Source: a virus
IMG/VR virus record: IMGVR_UViG_3300023082_000019
Span: 1-42,518 of that record
Direction: 5' to 3' (one strand)
Length of the DNA stretch: 42,518 bases
Part shown: one piece after another, positions 3,343-42,406 of the stretch
Layout of the letters: every line of letters starts with the position of its first letter
Numbering within the stretch: the stretch's first letter is position 1
Position numbers and translations under genes: made by a program
The notes under the pieces: model-generated
Told to the model about the DNA's origin: nothing
The model's input: only the letters and a program-made list of their open reading frames with translations
Databases searched by the model: none

Positions 3343-4575
3343 TCAAGCACCGACACGCAGCGAGGCCTTGGCCAGTGGCGTACGGGCGCTGGGTTTAGGC
3401 TGGACTGGACGCGGGGCGACGGTCTTTCCAATCGCAAAACGTCCCCACTTTTCCATCATGGGTTTGCGCTTTTCGAGCTGATTGCTCCGGGTATAGGTGC
3501 GAGACGTGGCGTTGCCGACGACGTGTGCCAGGCAGATTTCACACAGGTCATGCGAGAAGTCCGTCTTTTCCTGTAACCAGGTGCGGAAGGTCGAGCGGAA
3601 GCCATGCACGGTGCAATCCTGATTCATCGTCTTCATCAACCGGCGCAGCGCGTTGGGCGCAAGCGATTTACTGTGGTCGCGATTGGAGAAAATGAAATCA
3701 CTCTTGCCCCGCGTGCCGACCTCTTTGATAACGGCGAGCGCCGCATCGCTGAGCGGCACCTGGTGCAACTCTTTGCCCTTCATACGTTCGGCCGGAATGC
3801 TCCACACCGCGTGCTCAAAGTCGATTTCGTCCCAGCGCGCGCCAATCGCTTCGGCGGTGCGGCAGCCTGTCAATATAAGGAATTGGAGGCAGCGTGCAGC
3901 TCGGGAATCCTCGGCATCCAGCTTGAGCATAAAATCGGGCAACAGCACGTAGTCCATCGCCTCGAGCGGCACCGGGGCGGGCAGTACGTTAGGCATGATG
4001 TTGCGCAAATGACCCTGCCAGCGAGCCGGGTTTTCGCCCGTGCGGTGGCCCATGGCTGTGGAGTACTCCAATACTCGCTCAATTCGATTGCGCACGCGGC
4101 GAGCCGTCTCTGGCAATTCACGCCAAATTACGTCGAGCACCTTCGTCACCTGCTTGGTGTCGATATCGGCGACTGGCTTTGAGCCAATTAAGTCGAAAAC
4201 ATGGTCGCGCAAGGACGCTTCCCACTGGTGGGTGTGAGTCTGCGACCACTCTTTGCGATGGCGCTCAATGTAGGCGTTTGCATCGTCCAGAAAGGTGATA
4301 ACCGGCTGATCAGCCAAGGCTTTTTGCGCCTTCACGTCACGCGGATCGATACCTTTGCGCGACAGGAGCTTGATTTCCATCGCTCGTGCGCGGGCATCTT
4401 CAAGGGACACCTCGGGGAATTTACCCAACCCGTCGTCACGGCGCTTGCCGTTCAACGTGTAGCGTACGATCCAAGCTTTTGCCCCACCGGGAGATACCCG
4501 CAGAGACAAACCGTATTTGTCGGGATATTTAGCCGGGATGGTTATGTTTTGAATAACCTTCTGGGTGAGGGCCAT
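3343..4575 (-). CDS. int: Tyrosine site-specific integrase, P4-like
   Basis: 410 residues. The N-terminal block (residues about 5-90, with YGLSLRVSPGGAKAWIVRYT) is the DUF4102 arm-binding domain of P4-type integrases, followed by a SAM-like core-binding region. The catalytic residues are all present: R239 in TGCRTAEA, K266/K268, H324 and R327 in VHGFRSTFR, H351, and Y361 in RTYTRS. The enzyme should integrate and, with an excisionase, excise the phage DNA by DNA strand transfer. An AGGCAG ribosome site precedes ATG 4575. No excisionase was recognised. The gene points toward the lysis operon across a shared terminator. Confidence 0.95.
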   Translation of the reverse strand: MALTQKVIQNITIPAKYPDKYGLSLRVSPGGAKAWIVRYTLNGKRRDDGLGKFPEVSLEDARARAMEIKLLSRKGIDPRDVKAQKALADQPVITFLDDANAYIERHRKEWSQTHTHQWEASLRDHVFDLIGSKPVADIDTKQVTKVLDVIWRELPETARRVRNRIERVLEYSTAMGHRTGENPARWQGHLRNIMPNVLPAPVPLEAMDYVLLPDFMLKLDAEDSRAARCLQFLILTGCRTAEAIGARWDEIDFEHAVWSIPAERMKGKELHQVPLSDAALAVIKEVGTRGKSDFIFSNRDHSKSLAPNALRRLMKTMNQDCTVHGFRSTFRTWLQEKTDFSHDLCEICLAHVVGNATSRTYTRSNQLEKRKPMMEKWGRFAIGKTVAPRPVQPKPSARTPLAKASLRVGA

Positions 4576-4878
4576 AGATTGTCTGCCTTTATGCGTGTGT
4601 GTGCTGCGTAATTAAAGTGGGCGATCCGTAGCATGTGGCGGTTCCAGTTTCTAAAGCGAAAGACGATAGATTTTAAAAGTGCAGGGGAAAACATCAGGTC
4701 AATGTCTCAGATTGCGCCGGATGTTACGCGGATATTGTATCCGCGTAACATCTGCCTGTAGAGCCCACCACATAAGGGCATCCGCAAATCGCTCTGGAAC
4801 CGGTCCCACACATTGACCCCAACTGCCACATGTTCGTTTGTAGAGGGTGTCACGAGAAGGTTCAAATGCGAAGTGCCT
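4576..4878. promoter_or_regulatory. Intergenic region upstream of int (possible attP/int control)
   Basis: About 300 bp without a credible gene. It is more AT-rich than its neighbours and holds the perfect 14-bp inverted repeat described separately. It should contain the int promoter on the minus strand. attP could lie here or between 3136 and 3343. I could not identify a core sequence or a tRNA 3' end in either place. Confidence 0.4.
4721..4751. repeat. Perfect inverted repeat, full-palindrome form of the CGCGGATA motif
   Basis: ATGTTACGCGGATA (4721-4734) is followed by TTG and then its exact reverse complement (4738-4751). The arms match the phage-wide ATGTACGCGGATA motif with one extra T. 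It lies about 146 bp upstream of the int start and has no T-run on either side, so it is more likely a dimer-binding operator than a terminator. Confidence 0.8.
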
Positions 4879-5250
4879 TTACCGACGAATGGTGTAGTTT
4901 TTTTCTGGATTTGGTGAATCTTGCCATTTTAGGTACGCCAAATAGTTGTCCACCCCTTCAAATGCGTCAATCATCTGGCGGGCGCGCTGGATTTCTGACG
5001 CGTCCTTTCGGGCCTGTCTATCGGCTGCTAATGCGTTCTGGGCATATTGAATACGTTTGAAGTATTGCCCGATCTCTGTAGGCAGTTGGTAAGCGCTTAA
5101 TATCAAGATCGCTACAATTGTCAGCGCCAGGGCCTTTCTGAGCCGGCCATAAAACTTGCGAAGCACCGCATTAGCCACTCCGTCGGGTGTGTAACTGCGG
5201 TACATATAAGAGAGTGCACCGGCTAATACTAATAGTGGCAATGTGAACAT
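4879..5250 (-). CDS. Small membrane protein, two predicted TM segments
   Basis: 123 residues from ATG 5250, chosen because AGGGGAT precedes it; longer upstream frames lack a ribosome site. Hydrophobic stretches at about residues 3-14 (LPLLVLAGALSY) and 37-55 (ALALTIVAILILSAY) are separated by a basic loop and followed by a charged helical tail. It is the last gene of a leftward run. The function is unknown; superinfection exclusion is one possible role for such proteins but nothing here shows it. Confidence 0.6.
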   Translation of the reverse strand: MFTLPLLVLAGALSYMYRSYTPDGVANAVLRKFYGRLRKALALTIVAILILSAYQLPTEIGQYFKRIQYAQNALAADRQARKDASEIQRARQMIDAFEGVDNYLAYLKWQDSPNPEKNYTIRR

Positions 5251-13896: not shown

Positions 13897-14686
13897 ATTC
13901 GACCCTAAAGAGCTTGAGCGGATCATCCGCAAGATCAAGCATTGCCTGGCGCTGTCCCAGAGCGCCAACGAGCACGAAGCGGCGACCGCGATGCGCCAGG
14001 CTCAAAGCCTGATGCAGAAGTACCGTCTGACTGAGCTGGACGTGCACCTGAGCGATATCGGCAAGTCCGAGGCAGAGAAGGCCGCGGCCACTCGCCCGGC
14101 ATGGGAAAAGGATCTGGCGGGGCTGGTGGCGTCTGCCTTTGGCTGCAGGTCGTTCACCTTTCGCAATTGGTGCAGCAAGCGTCTGCTGGTGCTCGAGCGA
14201 TCTGTATTCGTCGGAGTGAGCCCCTCGCACGAAATCGCCAAGTACGCCTATGACACGCTGCTGACCAAGGTGACGTTCGCGCGCAAGCAGTTCATGGCCG
14301 ACATCCGTGCCGGGCGTGTGCGGCCCGCCAAGTACAGCGCCGAAACCCGTGGTAACCACTTCGCCCTGGCGTGGGTGTCGGCCGTGCATCACAAGCTTGA
14401 GGCGCTGGTGCCTGAGACGGACGAACTGACCCCGAGTGAAAGCCAGGCACTGATCGTTTCTCAGACTCAGGAAAACGCCTTGATCGATCAGTTCATGCAC
14501 CAGCTCACCAACGGCGCGGGCGTGGGGAAATCGCGCGCGGGCAAGATGGCCAAGCCTAATACGTCGGATCTGCTGGCGGGCTTTCAGGCGGGCGGTGAAG
14601 TCGAACTGAATCATGGGGTGGGTACCGCCACTGCTCAGCCGTTGGCGATTGGCCGCGGGGCACCAGAGCAGGGGAGTTTCCTGTAA
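13889..14686 (+). CDS. DUF2786 domain protein
   Basis: 265 residues from ATG 13889. The N-terminal segment (IIRKIKHCLALSQSANEHEA then AMRQAQSLMQKYRLTELD) is the DUF2786 signature found in phage and bacterial proteins of unknown function. A middle region has VGVSPSHEIAKYAYDTLL and a basic stretch. It is the last gene before module 3. It may be a DNA-associated scaffold, but nothing proves it. Confidence 0.75.
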   Translation: MSEFDPKELERIIRKIKHCLALSQSANEHEAATAMRQAQSLMQKYRLTELDVHLSDIGKSEAEKAAATRPAWEKDLAGLVASAFGCRSFTFRNWCSKRLLVLERSVFVGVSPSHEIAKYAYDTLLTKVTFARKQFMADIRAGRVRPAKYSAETRGNHFALAWVSAVHHKLEALVPETDELTPSESQALIVSQTQENALIDQFMHQLTNGAGVGKSRAGKMAKPNTSDLLAGFQAGGEVELNHGVGTATAQPLAIGRGAPEQGSFL

Positions 14687-14744
14687 GAGCCCGTAAACAG
14701 GCCCTTTCGGCGGTATTTGGCTGGGTCATAATACGCAACACAAA

Positions 14745-14802
14745 GGCGCGAACGCGCGTACGCACTAAAACAGGTTTGCGCGTACGCGCGTTCATGTATG
14801 AT
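14745..14802 (+). promoter_or_regulatory. GCGCG operator-promoter module 3
   Basis: The elements are GGCGCGAACGCGCG (14745-14758) and a perfect palindrome GCGCGTACGCGC (14778-14789). TTTGCG (14775-14780), 16 bp and TATGAT (14797-14802) form a credible promoter with the palindrome in its spacer. Confidence 0.7.
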
Positions 14803-14811
14803 GATTCGGCA

Positions 14812-14823
14812 ATCAGCCAGATA
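14812..14823 (+). promoter_or_regulatory. Leader site complementary to the small RNA (target 2)
   Basis: ATCAGCCAGATA is a 12-base exact complement of 6096-6107 in the small RNA. It lies between the promoter and the AGGAAG ribosome site of the leader peptide at 14837. Confidence 0.5.
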
Positions 14824-14836
14824 CAGGAAGCACCCC

Positions 14837-14890
14837 ATGTACACAGATATTTGCAGTCCGGCCGCCAGCGCCGGAAAGGGGGCGCGATGA
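14837..14890 (+). CDS. 17-residue leader peptide
   Basis: ATG 14837 has AGGAAG seven bases upstream and encodes MYTDICSPAASAGKGAR. Its stop overlaps the start of the 300-residue gene as ATGA (14887-14890), and that gene has no strong ribosome site other than GGGGGCG. Translation of the larger protein therefore probably depends on this leader, which is also where small RNA pairing would act. Confidence 0.55.
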   Translation: MYTDICSPAASAGKGAR

Positions 14891-15789
14891 ACGCCGCCGA
14901 AAAGCCGACCCGGCACGACTTCAACTTTTCCATGGGCGCAGAGAGCAAGCGCAAGCTGGATGACTTGATGTCGCGCTGTGGACACAACCAATTGAACCTG
15001 ACCGTCGCTCGTGCGCTGGCGCTGTTAGCGTGGGTGGAGGATCAAAGCGATTTGGGCCGCGTGGTGGGGAGCATTCGCTACGGCGACGAGCTGGACTTTG
15101 TCGAGCTTGAAGAACGCGCCGAGCTGTTGCGCCCGCGTCCGCGTCCTCACCTGGTGCCGGCCGTTGCGCCGATCGCCGAAGTGGTCGCTCCGATCGAGCC
15201 AGAGCCCGTCCCGGCGCCGGAACCCACCCCGCAACCTGAGCCAGCCCCAGCCCCAGAGCCTGCGCCTGTCGAGCCAGCCCCATTGACGGCAACGACCAAT
15301 CCGAAGCTGATGGCCCGGCCCAGGGTGGCACCCGCCCCGAGCGCGCCGCCTCGTGAGCGTTCGCGCCGCATGATGAAGCATGACGCCTACGAGCAAGACG
15401 ATAACGGCCCAATCAAAACGCTCAAGTACCTGCAAGCCAACTGCAAGGCCCGCGGCTGGCCACAACCGGTTGCATACGGCGCTCACTGCATGCCGGGCAA
15501 CCTGTACAAGCACCACGAGCAGCGCCTGAAAGAAATCATGGACAACCACCCCACGGCTACGCACTTCCGCATCGCGTTGCTTACCGAGGATCTGGCTTTT
15601 TGTTCGTACTCGCCCCAAAAGGGCTGGTGCGAATACGACGAGTCATCGGGTCGGTGGATCAAAGACATGAACCTGCACCACGGTACGTCCTGGATATATC
15701 CAGTGATCCACGCCGCCGAGTACCTACGCCGGTTTGGGAAAGAATCCCCGAACCCTCCGCAATATGACGATTCCTGCCCGAACTTCTAA
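14887..15789 (+). CDS. Two-domain hypothetical protein with Pro/Glu/Ala linker
   Basis: 300 residues from ATG 14887. The N-terminus (about 1-75) includes SMGAESKRKLDDLMSRCG, like a ribbon-helix-helix or coiled regulator. A repetitive linker (about 100-145) repeats EPxPAPEP. The C-terminal domain (about 165-300) is rich in aromatic, His and Cys residues (KARGWPQPVAYGAHCMPGNL; THFRIALLTEDLAFCSYSP). No family is recognised. Translation appears coupled to the leader peptide. Confidence 0.65.
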   Translation: MNAAEKPTRHDFNFSMGAESKRKLDDLMSRCGHNQLNLTVARALALLAWVEDQSDLGRVVGSIRYGDELDFVELEERAELLRPRPRPHLVPAVAPIAEVVAPIEPEPVPAPEPTPQPEPAPAPEPAPVEPAPLTATTNPKLMARPRVAPAPSAPPRERSRRMMKHDAYEQDDNGPIKTLKYLQANCKARGWPQPVAYGAHCMPGNLYKHHEQRLKEIMDNHPTATHFRIALLTEDLAFCSYSPQKGWCEYDESSGRWIKDMNLHHGTSWIYPVIHAAEYLRRFGKESPNPPQYDDSCPNF

Positions 15790-32884: not shown

Positions 32885-32926
32885 GCACCATGCCCAGTAA
32901 TGTAGAAAGTGCGCCTTGAGGTAGCC

Positions 32927-34012
32927 ATGCCACGTAAGCGAAATGATGACCTCCCAGCCGGGTACGCGGATAACCTATCCGCGCCCAAGGGTAAGGCCGC
33001 CACTAAGCCAGACCGTTCCCCCCGCGTTGCTAAGGTTAGCAAGCCAAAGGCCGCTGAAAAGGACACCGGGAAAGCCCCCGCAAAGGCTCGAAATTCTGCG
33101 GCACCTGCTGCTGCAAAACCTGCGGCTACGGCCGACAGCCCAGCAGCTGAAAAGCAAGGCACGACCGTCGTTAAAAACCCGATCGAGCTGAATGAAAAAC
33201 AGCTGGAAGCCTTAGCGCTTGCGCAGTTGCACGGACTTAACCCCAAGATGGCCAAGTTCGTGGACCTGTACCTGGTGAGCTACAACCAGGTGCAGTCTTA
33301 TCGTGATGCGGGCTACACCGCCAAGAACGATAACGTGGCCGCTGTCGGGGCCAGCAAGTTGCTAAAAAAGGTTAAGTACCACCCCTATTACGCGGCCCGC
33401 CAGGCTGAAATCTTCAAGCGCACCGCCGATGTGCAAAACGCGACTATTGGCGTCATCCATGCCGCCGCCTTCGCAGATCCGCGCGAAATCTCCGAGCTGC
33501 GCCGCGCGTGCTGCCGCTATTGCTATGGCATCGACAACCGCTATCAGCACACCCCGCGTGAAATGGAGCGGCGCCGGGACGAATACGACGCCAAGTTTGC
33601 CGAGGCTGAGGCCGACAACAAAGGCCACCTATTCCCCCCGTTCGACGAGCTGGGCGGCCTGGGCTACGACAAGCGCAAAGCCCCCCAGCAGGATTGCCCG
33701 GAATGCGCAGGCGAGGGCATCCAGTACACCCACTTCCACGATTCGCGCGGCTACAGCCCTGCTGCTGTAGCGCTGTACGGCGGCGTGGAGGAAACCAAAG
33801 ACGGTTTGAAGATCCGCACCGGCGACCAGAAGGCCTATCGCGAGTTGGTGGCCAAGATATTCGACCTGCATGTCGAGCCTGCTGTTGTCGTCAACAACGG
33901 CCCAGACAGCGCTGAGCTGGACGCCGCAATCATGCGCGCCCACGAGAAGACAGAAGCCGCTCGCCTGGAAATGCAGGAACGCCGGCGCCGCATTGAAGAA
34001 GGGAATCTGTGA
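32927..34012 (+). CDS. terS: Terminase small subunit (Terminase_2-like)
   Basis: 361 residues from ATG 32927 (GAGG upstream), long for the family. Residues 1-85 are a Lys/Ala/Pro-rich disordered tail. The DNA-binding core is NPKMAKFVDLYLVSYNQVQS, YRDAGY, VAAVGASKLLKKVKYHPYYA (about 105-165), typical of Terminase_2. Cys motifs CCRYC and CPEC (about 190-265) form a probable zinc insert. The end is a charged helix. It recognises the packaging site and recruits TerL. A CGCGGATA inverted repeat lies inside its 5' end. Confidence 0.85.
   Translation: MPRKRNDDLPAGYADNLSAPKGKAATKPDRSPRVAKVSKPKAAEKDTGKAPAKARNSAAPAAAKPAATADSPAAEKQGTTVVKNPIELNEKQLEALALAQLHGLNPKMAKFVDLYLVSYNQVQSYRDAGYTAKNDNVAAVGASKLLKKVKYHPYYAARQAEIFKRTADVQNATIGVIHAAAFADPREISELRRACCRYCYGIDNRYQHTPREMERRRDEYDAKFAEAEADNKGHLFPPFDELGGLGYDKRKAPQQDCPECAGEGIQYTHFHDSRGYSPAAVALYGGVEETKDGLKIRTGDQKAYRELVAKIFDLHVEPAVVVNNGPDSAELDAAIMRAHEKTEAARLEMQERRRRIEEGNL
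32965..32983. repeat. CGCGGATA-N3-TATCCGCG inverted repeat inside terS
   Basis: A perfect 8-bp dyad (CGCGGATA, ACC, TATCCGCG) 38 bp into the gene, with the same arm and 3-bp spacing as the palindrome upstream of int. It is a possible operator or roadblock site. Confidence 0.6.
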
Positions 34013-34317
34013 TGACCACCCCCTTAACTGTTTCCTCATTGGTGCCCAGCCAGGACCAGGTGCGCGAGTTGCGCCTGCGTACCGGGCTCAGCCAGCGCCA
34101 GAGCGCCACCCTGATCCACGTCAGCCGCCGTTCATGGCAGTGCTACGAGGACGGTAGCGCCAAGATCAAGCTGGGCCTGTGGGAGCTGTACCAGTTCAAG
34201 ACCGGGCAAATCTGGGCTCTCCCGTTTGCCGTCAATAAAGCAAAGGCATCGACCCGCCATCAGGGCCGCGCCGCCAACCTCACGCCGTTCAAGGCAACCA
34301 AACAGACTCAGGAGTAG
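34012..34317 (+). CDS. XRE-type helix-turn-helix protein
   Basis: 101 residues, ATG 34012 overlapping the terS stop (TGATG). VRELRLRTGLSQRQSATLIH, VSRRSWQCYEDGSAKI form the HTH (about 17-52). The remainder is basic. This small type, with an SRRSWQxYE recognition helix, is common in Pseudomonas phages near late genes. It may control the packaging and late operon. Confidence 0.75.
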   Translation: MTTPLTVSSLVPSQDQVRELRLRTGLSQRQSATLIHVSRRSWQCYEDGSAKIKLGLWELYQFKTGQIWALPFAVNKAKASTRHQGRAANLTPFKATKQTQE

Positions 34318-34321
34318 GGCA

Positions 34322-35317
34322 ATGCTCACAGCGATCGACATGATGAAAGAGAACGACACCGGTCTGCTCAAGCTCGAGCAGCTCGACGAGTTCCGCACGT
34401 ACCTGGAAGGGTGTGGCTGCAAGGTGCGTAACGGTAATAACAACACTCAGCTGCTGTTCGTGGGCACGTCGTCGGGCTGGGCGCCGATCCAGAAAGGTGC
34501 TGCCGGCACCGTTAAGACGCCGATCGCGCTGCGTGCTGTTATCTCGGACTTCCTGCAGACACCGCTCACCCGCTCGATGACCCTGGCCAAGCGCATCAGT
34601 CGCGCCAAGAAGATCCCATTGGACGCCCCGGACATCACCCAGGCCGCTGCCTCACCCGTATCAGGGCAGTCGCAGGCCATCCCGTTCGGCGCCTACCTTC
34701 CTTGTGATCCTGAGCGCGTGGCCGATGCCCCGGCTGTGGACGCTACTTACCAGGGCGACACCAGCGCACTGGTCGAGCTACTCGCCAGTAGCAGTAGCCG
34801 GCTTGCGTCACACACTCTTTGTCATATCCCAGCTGAGCCGGACGCCCATACCCATAACGTGACGCTCGATCGTGAGAACGATTCCGGGACAGCCAATTTC
34901 CGCGTAGTGCATGGCCATCGATCGATTGACCAGGACGACAATGCGTTCGCGCCTACTGATAAAGCCCTTGAGCGTGCGCGCAAGTGGCGGGAGTTCGGCG
35001 AACTGGCCCGCAACCTGGGCGCGGTCGACGTAGGCGCTTCGGGTGCGATGGTCATCATGCCGCCATCCCTTCGAGAGCTGGCGGTAACCGGGCACGGCCT
35101 CATGGTTGAAGCAGGTACAACGCCAGCACCAGCACCAGCACCAGCGCCAGCGCCAGCGGTAGACCTGCAGCACCTGGAGGATCTGCGCGACGACTTCGCC
35201 ATTCACTGTCCTTTGATCCAGTGGGAGTGCGAACCGCTGGACGCTTTCGCTGTTCGCCGATGGCAGTACGCGGACGTGATGATGAAAATTCGTGCCGCCA
35301 TGTGCGCGGATAGCTGA
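34322..35317 (+). CDS. Hypothetical protein with Ala-Pro repeat
   Basis: 331 residues from ATG 34322. The N-terminal domain (about 1-95: DEFRTYLEGCGCKVRNGNNN) is small and basic. A flexible middle contains a run of PA repeats (about 271-282), encoded by an imprecise CAGCAC repeat (35120-35157). The C-terminal helix includes DLRDDFAIHCPL. No family recognised. Its 3' end contains a one-mismatch copy of the 13-mer. Confidence 0.55.
   Translation: MLTAIDMMKENDTGLLKLEQLDEFRTYLEGCGCKVRNGNNNTQLLFVGTSSGWAPIQKGAAGTVKTPIALRAVISDFLQTPLTRSMTLAKRISRAKKIPLDAPDITQAAASPVSGQSQAIPFGAYLPCDPERVADAPAVDATYQGDTSALVELLASSSSRLASHTLCHIPAEPDAHTHNVTLDRENDSGTANFRVVHGHRSIDQDDNAFAPTDKALERARKWREFGELARNLGAVDVGASGAMVIMPPSLRELAVTGHGLMVEAGTTPAPAPAPAPAPAVDLQHLEDLRDDFAIHCPLIQWECEPLDAFAVRRWQYADVMMKIRAAMCADS
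35300..35312 (+). promoter_or_regulatory. One-mismatch copy of the 13-mer (ATGTGCGCGGATA)
   Basis: It overlaps the end of the 34322 gene and lies 16 bp before the gene at 35328, the same kind of place as the exact copies. It may be a weaker site or a coincidence. Confidence 0.4.
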
Positions 35318-35728: not shown

Positions 35729-36306
35729 TGTTCCTCGAGCGCGCCGACTTCGAGCACCAGTGCGGCCTGGCTGGGATCACGGATCTGGAGCACGCCGGCG
35801 ACGGCTACGCCAATCCCGCTACCCAAGCCACCTACCAGGTATGGCAGAGCGCTGCGCGTCCGCTGGGCGATGCTGGCGCCGCTCCGATCGCGTGGGTGAC
35901 CCGTCGCGCCAACAAACCCCATGGCATCAGCTATACGCGCCCACCGGGCCCAGGCTCTGACGGTTGGGACGTGAAGGTGCGCCAGGGGTGGCAAGCGCCC
36001 ATGCCGCTGTTCGTGAACGTGCCAGGCGCCAGCCCGACCGCGATGGCCATGGTGATGGAGCGCCTGCGCCAGCAAACGGCTGAGGGTTTCAACCTCGATT
36101 GGGACAAGCAGTACATAAGGGGCGAGCTGGTGCGTGCGGCCGGGTGCTACGTGCTGCAGGCGGCCGGCATTCAAGCCATCGCGTTCCAACGCTGGTGGCC
36201 ATGGCCGAACAGCCCCATCAAGCGCTGTGACGCGAACGAATCCATCACCAAGGCCGTGGCGCTGCTCATTGCAGACCGTGAGCGCCATCAGGGGACACAA
36301 ACATGA
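35728..36306 (+). CDS. Hypothetical phage protein, 192 residues
   Basis: ATG 35728 follows GTG 35725; both are possible. The C-terminal part (RGELVRAAGCYVLQAAGIQA then RWWPWPNSPIKRCDANESIT) is a pattern I have met in many phage accessory proteins and resembles an ADP-ribosyl or Nudix-free helical domain, without assigned role. ATGA overlap with the next small gene. Confidence 0.55.
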   Translation: MFLERADFEHQCGLAGITDLEHAGDGYANPATQATYQVWQSAARPLGDAGAAPIAWVTRRANKPHGISYTRPPGPGSDGWDVKVRQGWQAPMPLFVNVPGASPTAMAMVMERLRQQTAEGFNLDWDKQYIRGELVRAAGCYVLQAAGIQAIAFQRWWPWPNSPIKRCDANESITKAVALLIADRERHQGTQT

Positions 36307-36467
36307 CACAGCCACACACATTGGCCGACGCCGCGCTGGCGCGTCACCACAACCAATTGCGGGCGTTCATTGAGGTCGTGGCGGGTAAGCCGCTCACGCC
36401 ATACCAATCGGATCTGCTCGATCAGCTGCTGAGCAACTCCCCAGTCGCGCAAACCCCCGCCAAATAG
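36303..36467 (+). CDS. Small hypothetical protein upstream of terL
   Basis: 54 residues, ATG 36303 overlapping the previous stop (ATGA). It reads as a sound helical protein: ALARHHNQLRAFIEVVAGKP then LTPYQSDLLDQLLS. Its place directly upstream of terL suggests a packaging accessory, but that is only context. Confidence 0.6.
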   Translation: MTQPHTLADAALARHHNQLRAFIEVVAGKPLTPYQSDLLDQLLSNSPVAQTPAK

Positions 36468-36531: not shown

Positions 36532-38088
36532 ATGGCCAGAGCGTCAAAACAGAAGGTAGAGCGGGCAGCCATTGACGCTGACCCACGCTATCTGGCGTTT
36601 ATGGAGCGCTACGCCGCCAACATCTACGGGTTTGCGGTCGAAGTCTGTGGCATGGATGTCACCCACCAGCAAAAAGAGCTGTTCGACGAAACCAGTGTGT
36701 TCGGGGCGCGCGTCTCGGTTGCCTCGGGCCACGGTACCGGCAAAACCCGATCGTTTGGCGTGATCGGGTTCTGGCACCTGTTCTGTTACCCCAATTCCAA
36801 CACCTACATCACCGCGCCCAAGCTCAAGACGGTGCGCGAAGGTGTGTGGAAGGAAATGACCAACCTTCTGACCGAAATCAAGAAGGGGCCGCACGCCTGG
36901 ATTGCCGAATACATCGAGATTCAGGCGGAAAAGGTCTACATCAAGACCCGTTCGGCCACCTGGTTCATCACCACCCGTACAGCGCCCCGCGGCGCGCCTG
37001 AGAACCTGGCCGGTACGCACGAACGCTACCTGCTGTGGATGGCTGACGAAGCCTCGGGCATACCAGACGCTAACTTTGGTGTGATCGGTGGCGCGATGAC
37101 CGACGCCCGCAACCGATTCATCATGGCGTCACAGCCCACCCGTAACGCCGGGTTCTTCCGGGACACCCACCACAACCTGAGCAAGTACCAGGGCGGTGAG
37201 TGGACATCGCTGACATTCAGCTCCGAAGACAGCCCGCTGGTAGACGATCCGTTCATCAAGTCCAAGATCATCCAGTACGGTGGGCGCGACGAGGCCGAGT
37301 ATCAAATCAAGGTCCGGGGCATGTTCCCGACCAACTCCAGCAAATACCTGGTCAGCCGATCGGCGATCGAGCGCGTCATCGACGGCCCGCGCGTCATCCT
37401 GGAAGGCGAGGCCTACGGTCACGTCATCGTCGTCGACGTTTCGGCTGGCGTGGGGCGAGACAAGACGGTGGCCACCCACTTCAAGGTCATCGGCAATGGC
37501 GATCGCATGTCGCCCGATCGGCGCCGTGTGGAAGTGGTCGACGTGCCTGTGTACACCAGCACCGAGGACTGGACACCGGTGGCGCGCAAGGTGCTGGACT
37601 ACGCCGCGGCCTTCAACAACGTATCGATCATCGTCGACACCAACGCCATGGGTAACCAGTTCCTCAAGCGCCTGATCGAGCTGGGCAGTGGGAGCATCAA
37701 CTGCAGGGGCGTGCGCTGGGGCGAACTGCCTTTCTCCAACGAATACCGCAAGCGCTTCCTCAACCAACGTGCGCAATCGACCGTACACGCGATCGAGGCC
37801 ATCAAGGACGGCGCCATACGCTTCACCAGCAAGTACAAAAAGGATCTGCTCGACCAGGCCAGCCGTATGCCTTACCACCTGGACGAGCTGGGGCGGTATC
37901 ACATCGCCCGTAAGCAGGACATGGCGGCCGAGAACCTGCCGTCGCCTGACTTCTTCGACACCGTGTGCATGGTGTTCCTTGAAAGCGCGGAGTACGTGCC
38001 GGCGCGTGGCGAAAGCGACAGCCTGGTAGAGGACAAGCGCGAACATGCACTGAACAAGGCCAAGGCCGAACTGGCCGACCTGGTCTGA
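36532..38088 (+). CDS. terL: Terminase large subunit
   Basis: 518 residues, AAGGG upstream. The ATPase domain has Walker A ASGHGTGKT (64-72), Walker B LLWMADEAS (167-175, Asp172-Glu173) and coupling motif FIMASQP (196-202). The RNase H-fold nuclease domain has VIVVDVS (Asp302), SIIVDTN (Asp369) and PDFFD (Asp473/Asp476). It cuts concatemers and drives DNA into the procapsid. A degenerate second copy of its nuclease half follows 42 bp downstream. Confidence 0.95.
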   Translation: MARASKQKVERAAIDADPRYLAFMERYAANIYGFAVEVCGMDVTHQQKELFDETSVFGARVSVASGHGTGKTRSFGVIGFWHLFCYPNSNTYITAPKLKTVREGVWKEMTNLLTEIKKGPHAWIAEYIEIQAEKVYIKTRSATWFITTRTAPRGAPENLAGTHERYLLWMADEASGIPDANFGVIGGAMTDARNRFIMASQPTRNAGFFRDTHHNLSKYQGGEWTSLTFSSEDSPLVDDPFIKSKIIQYGGRDEAEYQIKVRGMFPTNSSKYLVSRSAIERVIDGPRVILEGEAYGHVIVVDVSAGVGRDKTVATHFKVIGNGDRMSPDRRRVEVVDVPVYTSTEDWTPVARKVLDYAAAFNNVSIIVDTNAMGNQFLKRLIELGSGSINCRGVRWGELPFSNEYRKRFLNQRAQSTVHAIEAIKDGAIRFTSKYKKDLLDQASRMPYHLDELGRYHIARKQDMAAENLPSPDFFDTVCMVFLESAEYVPARGESDSLVEDKREHALNKAKAELADLV

Positions 38089-38130
38089 CCCCGCGCCGTG
38101 CTGGCGCTCAACCACAACGAGACATCACCC

Positions 38131-38985
38131 ATGACAAGCACAGCCCCGTATCAAGCCCTACTGCAGCGCGAAACCATCGAGCATGTTATCGACGGCCCGC
38201 CCGTGATCAATCACAGCGAGGCGTGGGGGCATTTGATCACCGTGGTGGTCGCGGGCGGCCCGCGAGGGGCACACACGATAGCCACTCACATGATCGTGTC
38301 CGGATCTGGTGACCGCCTGAGCAAGGATCGCCGCCGAGTAGAAATGATCGGGATACCCCTCTACACCACCAGCAGCGCCTGGATAACGCTGGCTAGTGCC
38401 GTTGCGCGTTATATCGAAGGCCTGCCGAACGTAACCGTGGCCATTGAGAACAAGGGGAACGGCACCGAATTCCGCCATCGGTTGAGCAAGTTGGCGCCCG
38501 CTGCGCGTTGCGTGAGCGTCCAATGGGGTGACGTTAATGTCTGCCCTGCGTATGCAGCGCGTTTCAGCAATACACGGGCGCAGGCGTACGTTCATGCTGT
38601 CGAGGCCATCAAGGACCGCGCAATTCGCCTCACCAGTGAAATGGCTGACACCATCCTTTGCCAGGGTAGCGATCTGGCCTACACCTTCGATCACCGTGGC
38701 GCGTACAGGCTTGAGAGCGAAATCGAACAGCACCTTGCTGGCGTAGATCAACCCGCCGTGTGGGACTCGATAGCCATGGCGTATGTCGAAGGTCTGGACT
38801 ATCTGCCAGCGATCGAGCAAACCACCGCTGTAGATGCGTGGGGGCTCGACCTTGAACGTATCGGCAAGGACGCCCAGCGCGGGATTGGCGCCAGCTCAGG
38901 CGATACGCTGCGCCTGCTGACCGAGGTGCTCGAGCTGCGCAAGCTCAAGGCTGAGTTTGCGGCCGTTGAGTCAAGATCGCTGTAG
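38131..38985 (+). CDS. Degenerate paralogue of the terminase nuclease domain
   Basis: 284 residues from ATG 38131. It aligns by eye with residues about 271-495 of the terL product: IEHVIDGPPVI with IERVIDGPRVI, SGSGDRLSKDRRRVEMIGIP with GNGDRMSPDRRRVEVVDVP, and VHAVEAIKDRAIRLTS with VHAIEAIKDGAIRFTS. There is no ATPase part. The catalytic acids are altered: Asp302 is Val39, Asp369 is Glu106, Asp473 is Ala209, while Asp476 is kept as Asp212. It is thus probably not a nuclease. It may bind DNA or TerL and tune packaging. The extra C-terminal 55 residues are helical. Confidence 0.75.
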   Translation: MTSTAPYQALLQRETIEHVIDGPPVINHSEAWGHLITVVVAGGPRGAHTIATHMIVSGSGDRLSKDRRRVEMIGIPLYTTSSAWITLASAVARYIEGLPNVTVAIENKGNGTEFRHRLSKLAPAARCVSVQWGDVNVCPAYAARFSNTRAQAYVHAVEAIKDRAIRLTSEMADTILCQGSDLAYTFDHRGAYRLESEIEQHLAGVDQPAVWDSIAMAYVEGLDYLPAIEQTTAVDAWGLDLERIGKDAQRGIGASSGDTLRLLTEVLELRKLKAEFAAVESRSL

Positions 38986-40206: not shown

Positions 40207-41670
40207 ATGATCACGATGCACAACCTGAAAATCGGCGAATCAAAGTCCGTCCCGCGCGTATGGCTTGAAGGCTCGAGCCTTGAGTTCGGTGGTTTGCAGA
40301 TCGGCTCCACCTACGCCATCGACAAGCTGGAGCCGCACCGCATTGAGCTGCGCCGTGTGAGCGCCGGGCACAAGGGGCAGACCTTTCTGGTGAGCCAGCG
40401 CACCCGTGGTCGTGTCCGTCCCCTGATGGAGATTCGCAGCAATAAGTTGCGTGAGTCGTTCGAGCACATCGAGAAGGTGACGGTCACGCTGCATGACGGC
40501 TCCATCGTCATCACCGCCAACCGTCTGGACGTGAACATGGTGCGCCGCGCCCTTTCCCTGCTGAACACTTTCAGCCGCGGTCAGGAGCTGTCCGCTATGA
40601 GCGTCTTCCACGGCGGCGGCGTGCTCGACCTGGCCATGCACGATGGTCTGACTGCCGAAGGGGTTCCGGTCTACGTCAAAGCCGCTGTCGAAATGGAGGA
40701 CAAGTATCTGGCGTCCTCGCTGCGCAACAACACCAAGCTGTGGCGCGACAGCTCTGTAGCCGTTCATTCGGACATCCGGCACGTCGATTGGCCGGCGCTG
40801 GGTGAAAGCAATCTGTTTTGGGGCGGGATTCCGTGCACGGGTGCGTCAATCTCAGGCCGATCGAAGAACAAGCTCAAGGCTGCTGAAGAGCATGTCGACG
40901 CCGGCGCGCTGTTCATGGACTTTCTTGATGGCGTGAAGTCCAGCAATGCCGCGATCGTGGGCTTTGAGAACGTGCCTGAGTACCAGAGCACCGTGTCGAT
41001 GATGCTGCTGCGCGCCAAGCTGGACACGTTGGGTTACGACCTTTACGAAATGGTGCTGGACGGCAATACGTTCGGCGCAGTTGAGCGCCGTCGCCGGCTG
41101 CTGGTTCTGGGGGTCTGCCGGAGCCTCAAAACGGCCTTCGACATCAACGACGTTCTCCCAGTCAGGATCAAGGAAGCCACACTGCGCGACATCATGGAGC
41201 CGGTAGCGCTCGACTCACCCCGCTGGCGCGAGCGTAAGGGCATTGCAGCCAAAGCAATCCGCGACAAGGCCGATGGCAAGGGGTTTGCTCCCCAGCAGCT
41301 TACGGGTGACGAGGCGCATTGCGGGACTATTGGCAAGGGCTACGCCAAGTGTCGCGGGACTGAGCCGTTCCTGATCCATCCGGACAATCCAAGCTTGCTG
41401 CGCATCCTCACTCCCCTTGAGCACGGCCGCGCGAAGGGCATCCCCGAAGGTGTCGCTGATGGCCAGTCGGACACGACCATGCACGAGATTTACGGTCAGT
41501 CCGTCATCTATCCAAAGCTCAAGGCGTTAGGCGCAGCTACGGGCCGGCTGATCCGGGAGGCTGCTCTCAAGTTCACGTCCAAGCCCGTTCGGATCGTGCC
41601 TCGCAGGCCCAAGGCATTGCCGGCACCAGACATGCAATACGATTTGCCGGGGCTGGCCGCCAGCAACTGA
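40207..41670 (+). CDS. C5-cytosine DNA methyltransferase with N-terminal extension
   Basis: 487 residues. Catalytic motifs: I, SVFHGGGVLDLA (132-143); IV, GGIPCTGASISG with nucleophile Cys210 (PCT in place of the usual PCQ); VI, FENVPE (253-258); VIII, AVERRRRLLVLG (291-302); and a closing MHEIYGQSVIYPKLKALG like motifs IX-X. Residues 1-128 are an added domain (SLEFGGLQIGSTYAIDKLEP) of unknown role. It should methylate cytosine C5 using S-adenosylmethionine, most likely to protect phage DNA. No restriction enzyme partner is seen. Confidence 0.88.
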   Translation: MITMHNLKIGESKSVPRVWLEGSSLEFGGLQIGSTYAIDKLEPHRIELRRVSAGHKGQTFLVSQRTRGRVRPLMEIRSNKLRESFEHIEKVTVTLHDGSIVITANRLDVNMVRRALSLLNTFSRGQELSAMSVFHGGGVLDLAMHDGLTAEGVPVYVKAAVEMEDKYLASSLRNNTKLWRDSSVAVHSDIRHVDWPALGESNLFWGGIPCTGASISGRSKNKLKAAEEHVDAGALFMDFLDGVKSSNAAIVGFENVPEYQSTVSMMLLRAKLDTLGYDLYEMVLDGNTFGAVERRRRLLVLGVCRSLKTAFDINDVLPVRIKEATLRDIMEPVALDSPRWRERKGIAAKAIRDKADGKGFAPQQLTGDEAHCGTIGKGYAKCRGTEPFLIHPDNPSLLRILTPLEHGRAKGIPEGVADGQSDTTMHEIYGQSVIYPKLKALGAATGRLIREAALKFTSKPVRIVPRRPKALPAPDMQYDLPGLAASN

Positions 41671-42163: not shown

Positions 42164-42406
42164 ATGCCAGCACCTAAGCGCAAGACCCCCGAACAGCTCC
42201 AAGCCCAGTGCGATGCCTGGAACGCCCGACACCCCGAGGGCACGCAGATCGCGTTCGAGAACATCCGTGGCCAAGGCGCCACCCACAAGGGCAAGACCAC
42301 CAGCGAAGCCCAGGTGATGGGCGGCCATAGCGCTGTCATCTGGTTTGACGGCAAGGCCGGCGCTGTCAGCCTGGATCACATCATGGTGCTGGATGCCGTG
42401 TTGTAA
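42164..42406 (+). CDS. Small hypothetical protein
   Basis: 80 residues, TAAGGACG upstream. Starts MPAPKRKTPEQLQAQCDAWN, then a beta pair (SAVIWFDGKAGAVSLDHIMV). Not recognised. Confidence 0.6.
   Translation: MPAPKRKTPEQLQAQCDAWNARHPEGTQIAFENIRGQGATHKGKTTSEAQVMGGHSAVIWFDGKAGAVSLDHIMVLDAVL

Follow-up and report, generated by a model that had tools for sequence, protein, structure and literature searches.

We analyzed a 42,518-nucleotide stretch of viral DNA (IMG/VR record IMGVR_UViG_3300023082_000019; the whole stretch is called the window here), in which the gene at positions 38131-38985 almost certainly encodes a paralogue of the nuclease domain in the phage's own terminase, non-catalytic and joined to a small phage tail module. 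This confidence covers the structural part of the explanation and is separate from that given to function. Compared by sequence, the gene is one member of a modular set of inactivated halves of the large terminase subunit (TerL) in P1-like phage-plasmids. Our best reading, a tentative one of somewhat less than even confidence, is that these proteins are non-catalytic TerL mimics with a putative binding role, most likely decoys for terminase-sensing defense (Avs). The fold and the parent family are known, and a recurrent set of inactivated stand-alone TerL halves was not found described in the papers searched.

Gene organization of the terminase region

The relevant features of the window are as follows.

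32909..34012, + strand: terminase small subunit (PacA-position gene), upstream of terL (PHROG_51, E 3.9e-23)
34304..35317, + strand: mosaic accessory gene, in the window lacking a nuclease-half insert (fused-family profile, E 2e-13 on the C-terminal tail)
36303..36467, + strand: 54-aa ORF, tail module of the class A ATPase half only (57-66% identity to the tail of the relatives' upstream gene)
36532..38088, + strand: intact TerL, 518 aa, P1 PacB type (PHROG_2 terminase large subunit, E 2.5e-26)
38131..38985, + strand: stand-alone, catalytically degenerate TerL nuclease half, 284 aa (blastp to TerL, AlphaFold2)
38152..38811, + strand: TerL-derived nuclease-like domain of that half, residues 8-227, triad positions V39/E106/D212
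38854..38982, + strand: its C-terminal tail module, residues 242-284, non-TerL (blastp matches in L003, L015, L017, L018 and L021; predicted long helix)

The TerL of the window is 33-35% identical to P1 and D6 PacB and has Walker A (GHGTGKT), Walker B (DEA) and the acids D302, D369 and D476 all in place. The gene for the nuclease half begins 42 bases after the TerL stop codon on the same strand, with an ATG start (starting from the in-frame GTG at 38098, the product would be 11 aa longer), and residues 1-227 of its product align with TerL residues 264-491 at 39% identity over 228 residues with one gap (blastp, E 2e-55). The original prediction of an alignment with the C-terminal half of the adjacent TerL was thus borne out, as was the absence of the ATPase half: the ORF contains neither that half nor Walker A or B motifs and does not qualify as a functional large terminase, and in relatives a separate dead ATPase half lies upstream of terL. 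No second copy of the nuclease half was found elsewhere in the window with a broad profile. The interval between the two genes contains no promoter-like site and no convincing terminator-like site, so cotranscription of terL and the nuclease half is plausible. Farther downstream, at 40207-41670, lies a gene for a C-5 cytosine DNA methyltransferase (PF00145, E 2.7e-16) to whose N terminus a region of ∼130 residues has been added.

The last ∼43 residues of the nuclease half (ERIGKDAQRGIGASSGDTLRLL...) are not TerL derived; they match a module that opens separate genes downstream of terL in L015, L017, L018 and L021 (handles of this form denote related loci). A different tail module, at 36303-36467, is fused to a dead stand-alone ATPase half in L004, L005 and L006, and in the window that ATPase half is missing. 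We considered this ORF as a live ATPase half and rejected the idea, as it consists of the tail module only.

Database comparisons agree with the earlier statement that no described family covers this protein. The window half has no PHROG, including no match to PHROG_5902 (see below), no Pfam family above the cut-off and no match in PADLOC, which holds defense proteins and mostly not phage inhibitors. A Pfam match to Methyltransf_34 (E 0.08) was discarded as noise.

Predicted fold and catalytic residues

An AlphaFold2 model of the window half (pLDDT 86.1, from a 27-row alignment) predicts the RNase H-like fold of the TerL nuclease. Structural comparison (Foldseek, VIA-align) matched the model to E217 TerL (8dkr) with Z 20.8 over 195 residues, to Sf6 gp2 with Z about 20, to T4 gp17 with Z 16, and to the TerL nuclease domain in the Avs3 complex 8dgc with Z 11.1. 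The lack of such a fold had been named as a result that would overturn the proposal of a duplicated TerL nuclease domain; the model instead has it, and the proposal is supported by both homology and predicted structure. The window half resembles the TerL nuclease domain (Sf6 gp2, Pseudomonas phage E217 TerL and the C-terminal half of P1 PacB) in fold, in the order of secondary-structure elements and in the third acid, but differs from it in standing alone without an ATPase half, in lacking the first Asp and in having the extra tail module.

Four residue changes between TerL and the window half had been read from the sequence, and all four are correct: D302 is V39, D369 is E106, D473 is A209 and D476 remains as D212. 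Their interpretation as lost catalytic acids holds in part. When TerL is matched by profile with solved terminases, D476 falls on the third catalytic Asp of Sf6 gp2 and E217 TerL, and D473, which falls on an Asn, lies outside the triad. Of the true triad, the window half has therefore lost D302, changed D369 conservatively to Glu and kept D476, leaving the triad incomplete at V39.

The same position separates TerLs from stand-alone nuclease halves generally. In the profile alignment that had been proposed as a check, D302 is present in 25/25 aligned TerLs, whereas 0/17 aligned stand-alone halves (classes B to F, described below) have Asp there and instead carry Val, Arg, Ala or Leu. Retention of the other two acids varies, and classes B, C, E and F preserve most of the fold and surface positions such as H316, G374, R408, R413 and A423. 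Among the stand-alone ATPase halves long enough to include the Walker motifs, none has the Walker A GxGxGKT or the Walker B DE pair. We rejected a second terminase that is split yet functional, since catalytic residues are lost in both halves. It is also very improbable that the window half is a weakly active or altered nuclease in which Glu106 and Asp212 support some metal binding and nicking: two acidic triad positions do remain, and Glu stands at the second position in T4 gp17 and other known terminases, but the first Asp, on β-1, is gone from every one of the aligned copies.

Stand-alone TerL halves in Pseudomonas-type phage-plasmids

TerL-based searches of viral contigs, genome contigs and plasmids supplied the related loci, and profiles of each TerL half were then run on all frames and also on whole records. 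Where relatives are named, they come from phage-plasmids or contigs assigned to Pseudomonas putida (pKF715C), P. fluorescens, P. atacamensis and P. azerbaijanoccidentalis. Of 20 distinct Pseudomonas-type phage-plasmid records (TerL at least 63% identical to that of the window; the truncated contig L025 was left out), 17 carry one or more stand-alone TerL halves, in differing combinations, and with these profiles none was found in L009, L016 or L021. Searches with less inclusive queries recovered little: the window half alone found nothing among viral contigs, a three-row alignment returned the two known relatives only, and tblastn with the stand-alone Pseudomonas copies against 50,697 phage records gave TerLs only or nothing.

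The halves fall into six classes. Class A is a stand-alone ATPase half directly upstream of terL, present in 14 distinct records (L004, L005 = L008, L006, L007 partly, L010 = L023, L015, L018, L019, L020, L022, L024, L027, L032 and L033). In L008 and L010 it overlaps the preceding gene by four bases, an arrangement of translational coupling, and in the window and L003 its tail module alone is kept. An AlphaFold2 model of the L018 protein (pLDDT 85.1) has matches among TerL ATPase domains (4znl, E 1.8e-7). Class B is a nuclease half within an accessory gene of L010, L022, L027, L032 and L033 that is, by its C-terminal tail, the orthologue of the window gene at 34304-35317. This gene lacks the insert in L024 and is short in other relatives, so the insert was probably gained. 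Across relatives the tail of this gene is conserved and its middle replaced, the middle in the L010 group being the dead TerL nuclease half.

Class C, to which the window half belongs, is a nuclease half downstream of terL that was also recovered from L003 and L004 when the gene pair was sought in other phages, as had been suggested. Class D, known from the L010 group, is a strongly diverged nuclease half in the corresponding place (TerL profile, E 2e-8). Classes E and F, in the L017, L006, L011 and L026 records, are nuclease halves fused to unrelated modules and located either close to the gene for the small subunit or tens of kb away from terL. Nuclease halves are fused to genes of the HTH region and to small accessory modules, one of which weakly matches a transcription regulator. 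On the minus strand of L076 (3559-4830), a single protein holds a dead nuclease half between PHROG_9165 at the N terminus and PHROG_27241 at the C terminus, and its N-terminal module resembles a separate window ORF at 42164-42406. The window half is 40-47% identical to stand-alone proteins of phages whose TerL is 91% identical, and the downstream copy is absent from L005 and L006, whose TerLs are 86-90% identical.

Two further features of terL itself were observed in these records. In L009, L013, L020, L021, L028, L030, L031 and L034, terL has an insert of ∼145-350 aa inside Walker A, after about residue 69; the L009 insert is annotated as a Hint-domain homing endonuclease, and the inserts thus look like inteins at one conserved site. 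CP018759.1 (W03) carries two apparently identical full terL copies, at 13966-15516 and ∼108.2-109.7 kb, separated by ∼20 kb on the circle; they may reflect an assembly artifact or a real large duplication.

A dead ATPase half in P1-type coliphages

With an ATPase half as query, tblastn reached P1-type coli plasmids. In AP026472.1 (L101), a 364-aa gene at 4016-5110, flanked by a 264-aa gene and hxr, is recognized by the TerL ATPase profile (E 3e-30) and is 34% identical to P1 PacB over 288 aa (E 1e-50). Walker A has changed from SGHGTGKS to TPHGIGET, and Walker B from DEAS to NSEE, NSAE or NAAE in the alleles read. The gene belongs to PHROG_5902 (function unknown; 8.8e-183) and lies between ssb/isaA and the antirestriction genes hxr-ddrB-ddrA-darA. 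Like the window half, PHROG_5902 is a stand-alone, inactivated half of a PacB-type TerL and an accessory gene of a phage-plasmid; it differs in representing the ATPase half, its Walker motifs dead, in being located in the ssb-hxr region and in having another C-terminal module.

About 120 plasmid records carry the 364-aa gene (119 at 80% coverage or more, with 90-100% identity), compared with 594 that have a P1-like pacB. It is present in the P1 isolates MH422554 (16006-17100) and MH445380, in both of which the dead ATPase half is labeled "terminase large subunit," an annotation to be corrected. Laboratory P1 (NC_005856) has isaA followed by IS1 and isaB and no ATPase half. We rejected P1 IsaA as a piece of TerL, since it matches the 264-aa neighbor (97%) and not the ATPase half. 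P1-like phage-plasmids have eight hypervariable regions, isaA-IS1-isaB among them (PMC9603915), and isaA and isaB are nonessential in P1 while pacA and pacB are essential (PMC10695390). In an Escherichia albertii plasmid (NZ_CP117661.1, L112, 2001-4399), the 364-aa gene is broken by the IS4-like element ISEc60.

Selection and origin

The halves are not debris but genes on which purifying selection acts loosely, a conclusion that is firmer for close pairs than for the window copy. Nei-Gojobori dN/dS was 0.10 (L022-L033, a close pair of diverged copies) and 0.20 (L022-L027) for nuclease halves and 0.17 (L022-L033), 0.22 (L018-L020), 0.29 (L015-L018) and 0.36 (L015-L020) for ATPase halves, compared with ∼0.05-0.10 for TerL in such close pairs. 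Selection in close pairs (dN/dS about 0.1-0.4) is thus 2-5 times looser on the halves than on TerL. Seven alleles of the 364-aa coliphage gene gave 0.1-0.4 in most pairs and higher values only where changes were very few.

Class C is more diverged, with dN/dS of 0.27-0.49 and dS of 1.1-2.1, against a TerL dS of 0.45-0.50 in the same pairs, which indicates that its alleles are older than, or exchanged independently of, the neighboring TerL. The window half changes in amino acid sequence several times faster than the TerL beside it. Its own dN/dS, a rough estimate of 0.46-0.49, comes with a near-saturated dS, which makes the case for selection weaker here than in closer pairs. When evolution of the window ORF was simulated neutrally, several stops were usual and zero stops remained in 0.1-3% of runs (0.2-0.55 changes per site).

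Stand-alone nuclease halves start near a common TerL domain boundary, at about residue 264-272. A single shared origin for them was not rejected (AU p 0.116), with long branches and an unsure placement. The order in L004, in which a dead ATPase half, an intact TerL and a dead nuclease half follow one another, may mean that one terL once inserted into another at the domain linker. This row, looking as if terL had been inserted into terL, and the genomes that retain a tail only (window 36303-36467) are what recommend an account of the halves as recombination debris, decaying pieces of an older terL left behind by an incoming one. We regard that account as improbable overall. A pseudogene would be expected to show relaxed selection and broken frames, but the frames are intact and dN/dS is well under 1 in close pairs (the evidence being weaker for the window copy), the same catalytic acid has been lost while the fold is retained, the ATPase half is coupled to the preceding gene in L008 and L010, and a nuclease half has been gained in frame inside an existing gene of which L024 keeps the empty version. 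Debris may still be how the halves originated; it is an unlikely description of the close pairs.

Possible functions of the inactivated halves

We propose that the window half would act through binding and not cutting. It has a predicted TerL-nuclease-like fold with what would be an incomplete two-metal site, and since that site cannot be completed, partners that recognize TerL could be occupied without TerL's work being done. The likeliest partner would be a host AVAST (Avs) defense sensor triggered by TerL. Avs1 to Avs4 recognize the large terminase or the portal (PMC12931631), and an Avs system that stops P1 is activated by the viral terminase (PMC12799240). A soluble accessory half-TerL would compete with TerL for such a sensor, the sensor, holding half a ligand only, would fail to trigger, and the resulting arms race would yield fast divergence together with gene gain and loss. 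Our preference for a decoy follows from the recruitment and inactivation of both TerL halves, the accessory and fast-evolving nature of the genes, the position of the P1-type gene beside antirestriction genes, and the sensing of TerL by Avs systems. The window half shares the fold of the known trigger (TerL recognized by Avs1 to Avs3, and present in 8dgc), but the trigger is intact TerL. Phage decoy anti-defense proteins offer a parallel, as a putative non-catalytic mimic of a sensed protein encoded by a small, fast-evolving accessory gene, but none derived from TerL was found in the papers searched. Nor did the literature searched yield a description of TerL paralogues or decoys; it mostly excluded subscription journals and is weak evidence of absence.

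Several points weigh against a decoy: a TerL half could instead trigger the Avs sensor, the dN/dS of the window copy makes selection on it less sure, and a position beside terL fits a packaging partner equally well. It seems to us rather unlikely that a dead half is a packaging modulator that attaches to TerL, PacA, the portal or pac DNA and adjusts how headful packaging begins or finishes, perhaps by joining the TerL ring or capping it. The halves do directly adjoin terL in most relatives, the window copy is plausibly cotranscribed with it and conserved TerL-domain motifs remain, but the close relatives L005 and L006 have no downstream copy and three relatives have no half at all, other copies sit tens of kb from terL fused to unrelated modules, the halves diverge fast while TerL does so slowly, and laboratory P1 grows without its half. 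The many fused contexts, the fast evolution, the presence and absence among relatives and the lack of the P1-type half in laboratory P1 argue against an essential role in packaging, and the same wider pattern favors the decoy-type option, which the original prediction had listed last.

We find it less probable still that a dead RNase H domain was simply reused as a scaffold for binding DNA, RNA or a non-packaging host protein, as in a regulator or an anti-restriction factor. Such a role would suit the fusions with genes of the HTH region and with small accessory modules, including the weak transcription-regulator match, as well as the P1 version adjoining the dar/ddr antirestriction genes; the recruitment and inactivation of ATPase and nuclease halves in the same phages, however, points to mimicry of TerL and not to the usefulness of a single scaffold.

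Few proteins of tailed phages are as conserved as TerL, which is also a known ligand of bacterial innate immune sensors, and dead TerL halves that recur in different genes and in phages of two bacterial families are candidates either for a missing class of counter-defense proteins or for regulators of headful packaging. We class the window half as a pseudoenzyme, paralogous to a phage protein, and see a real chance that it represents a new counter-defense class. The P1 version makes either idea testable, because natural P1 types carry the gene and laboratory P1 does not. More speculatively, and with perhaps a minority chance of being right, mobile and fast-evolving inactivated TerL halves would shield P1-like phage-plasmids of Pseudomonas and Enterobacteriaceae from terminase-sensing immunity, and the copy missing from laboratory P1 may add to its sensitivity to Avs.
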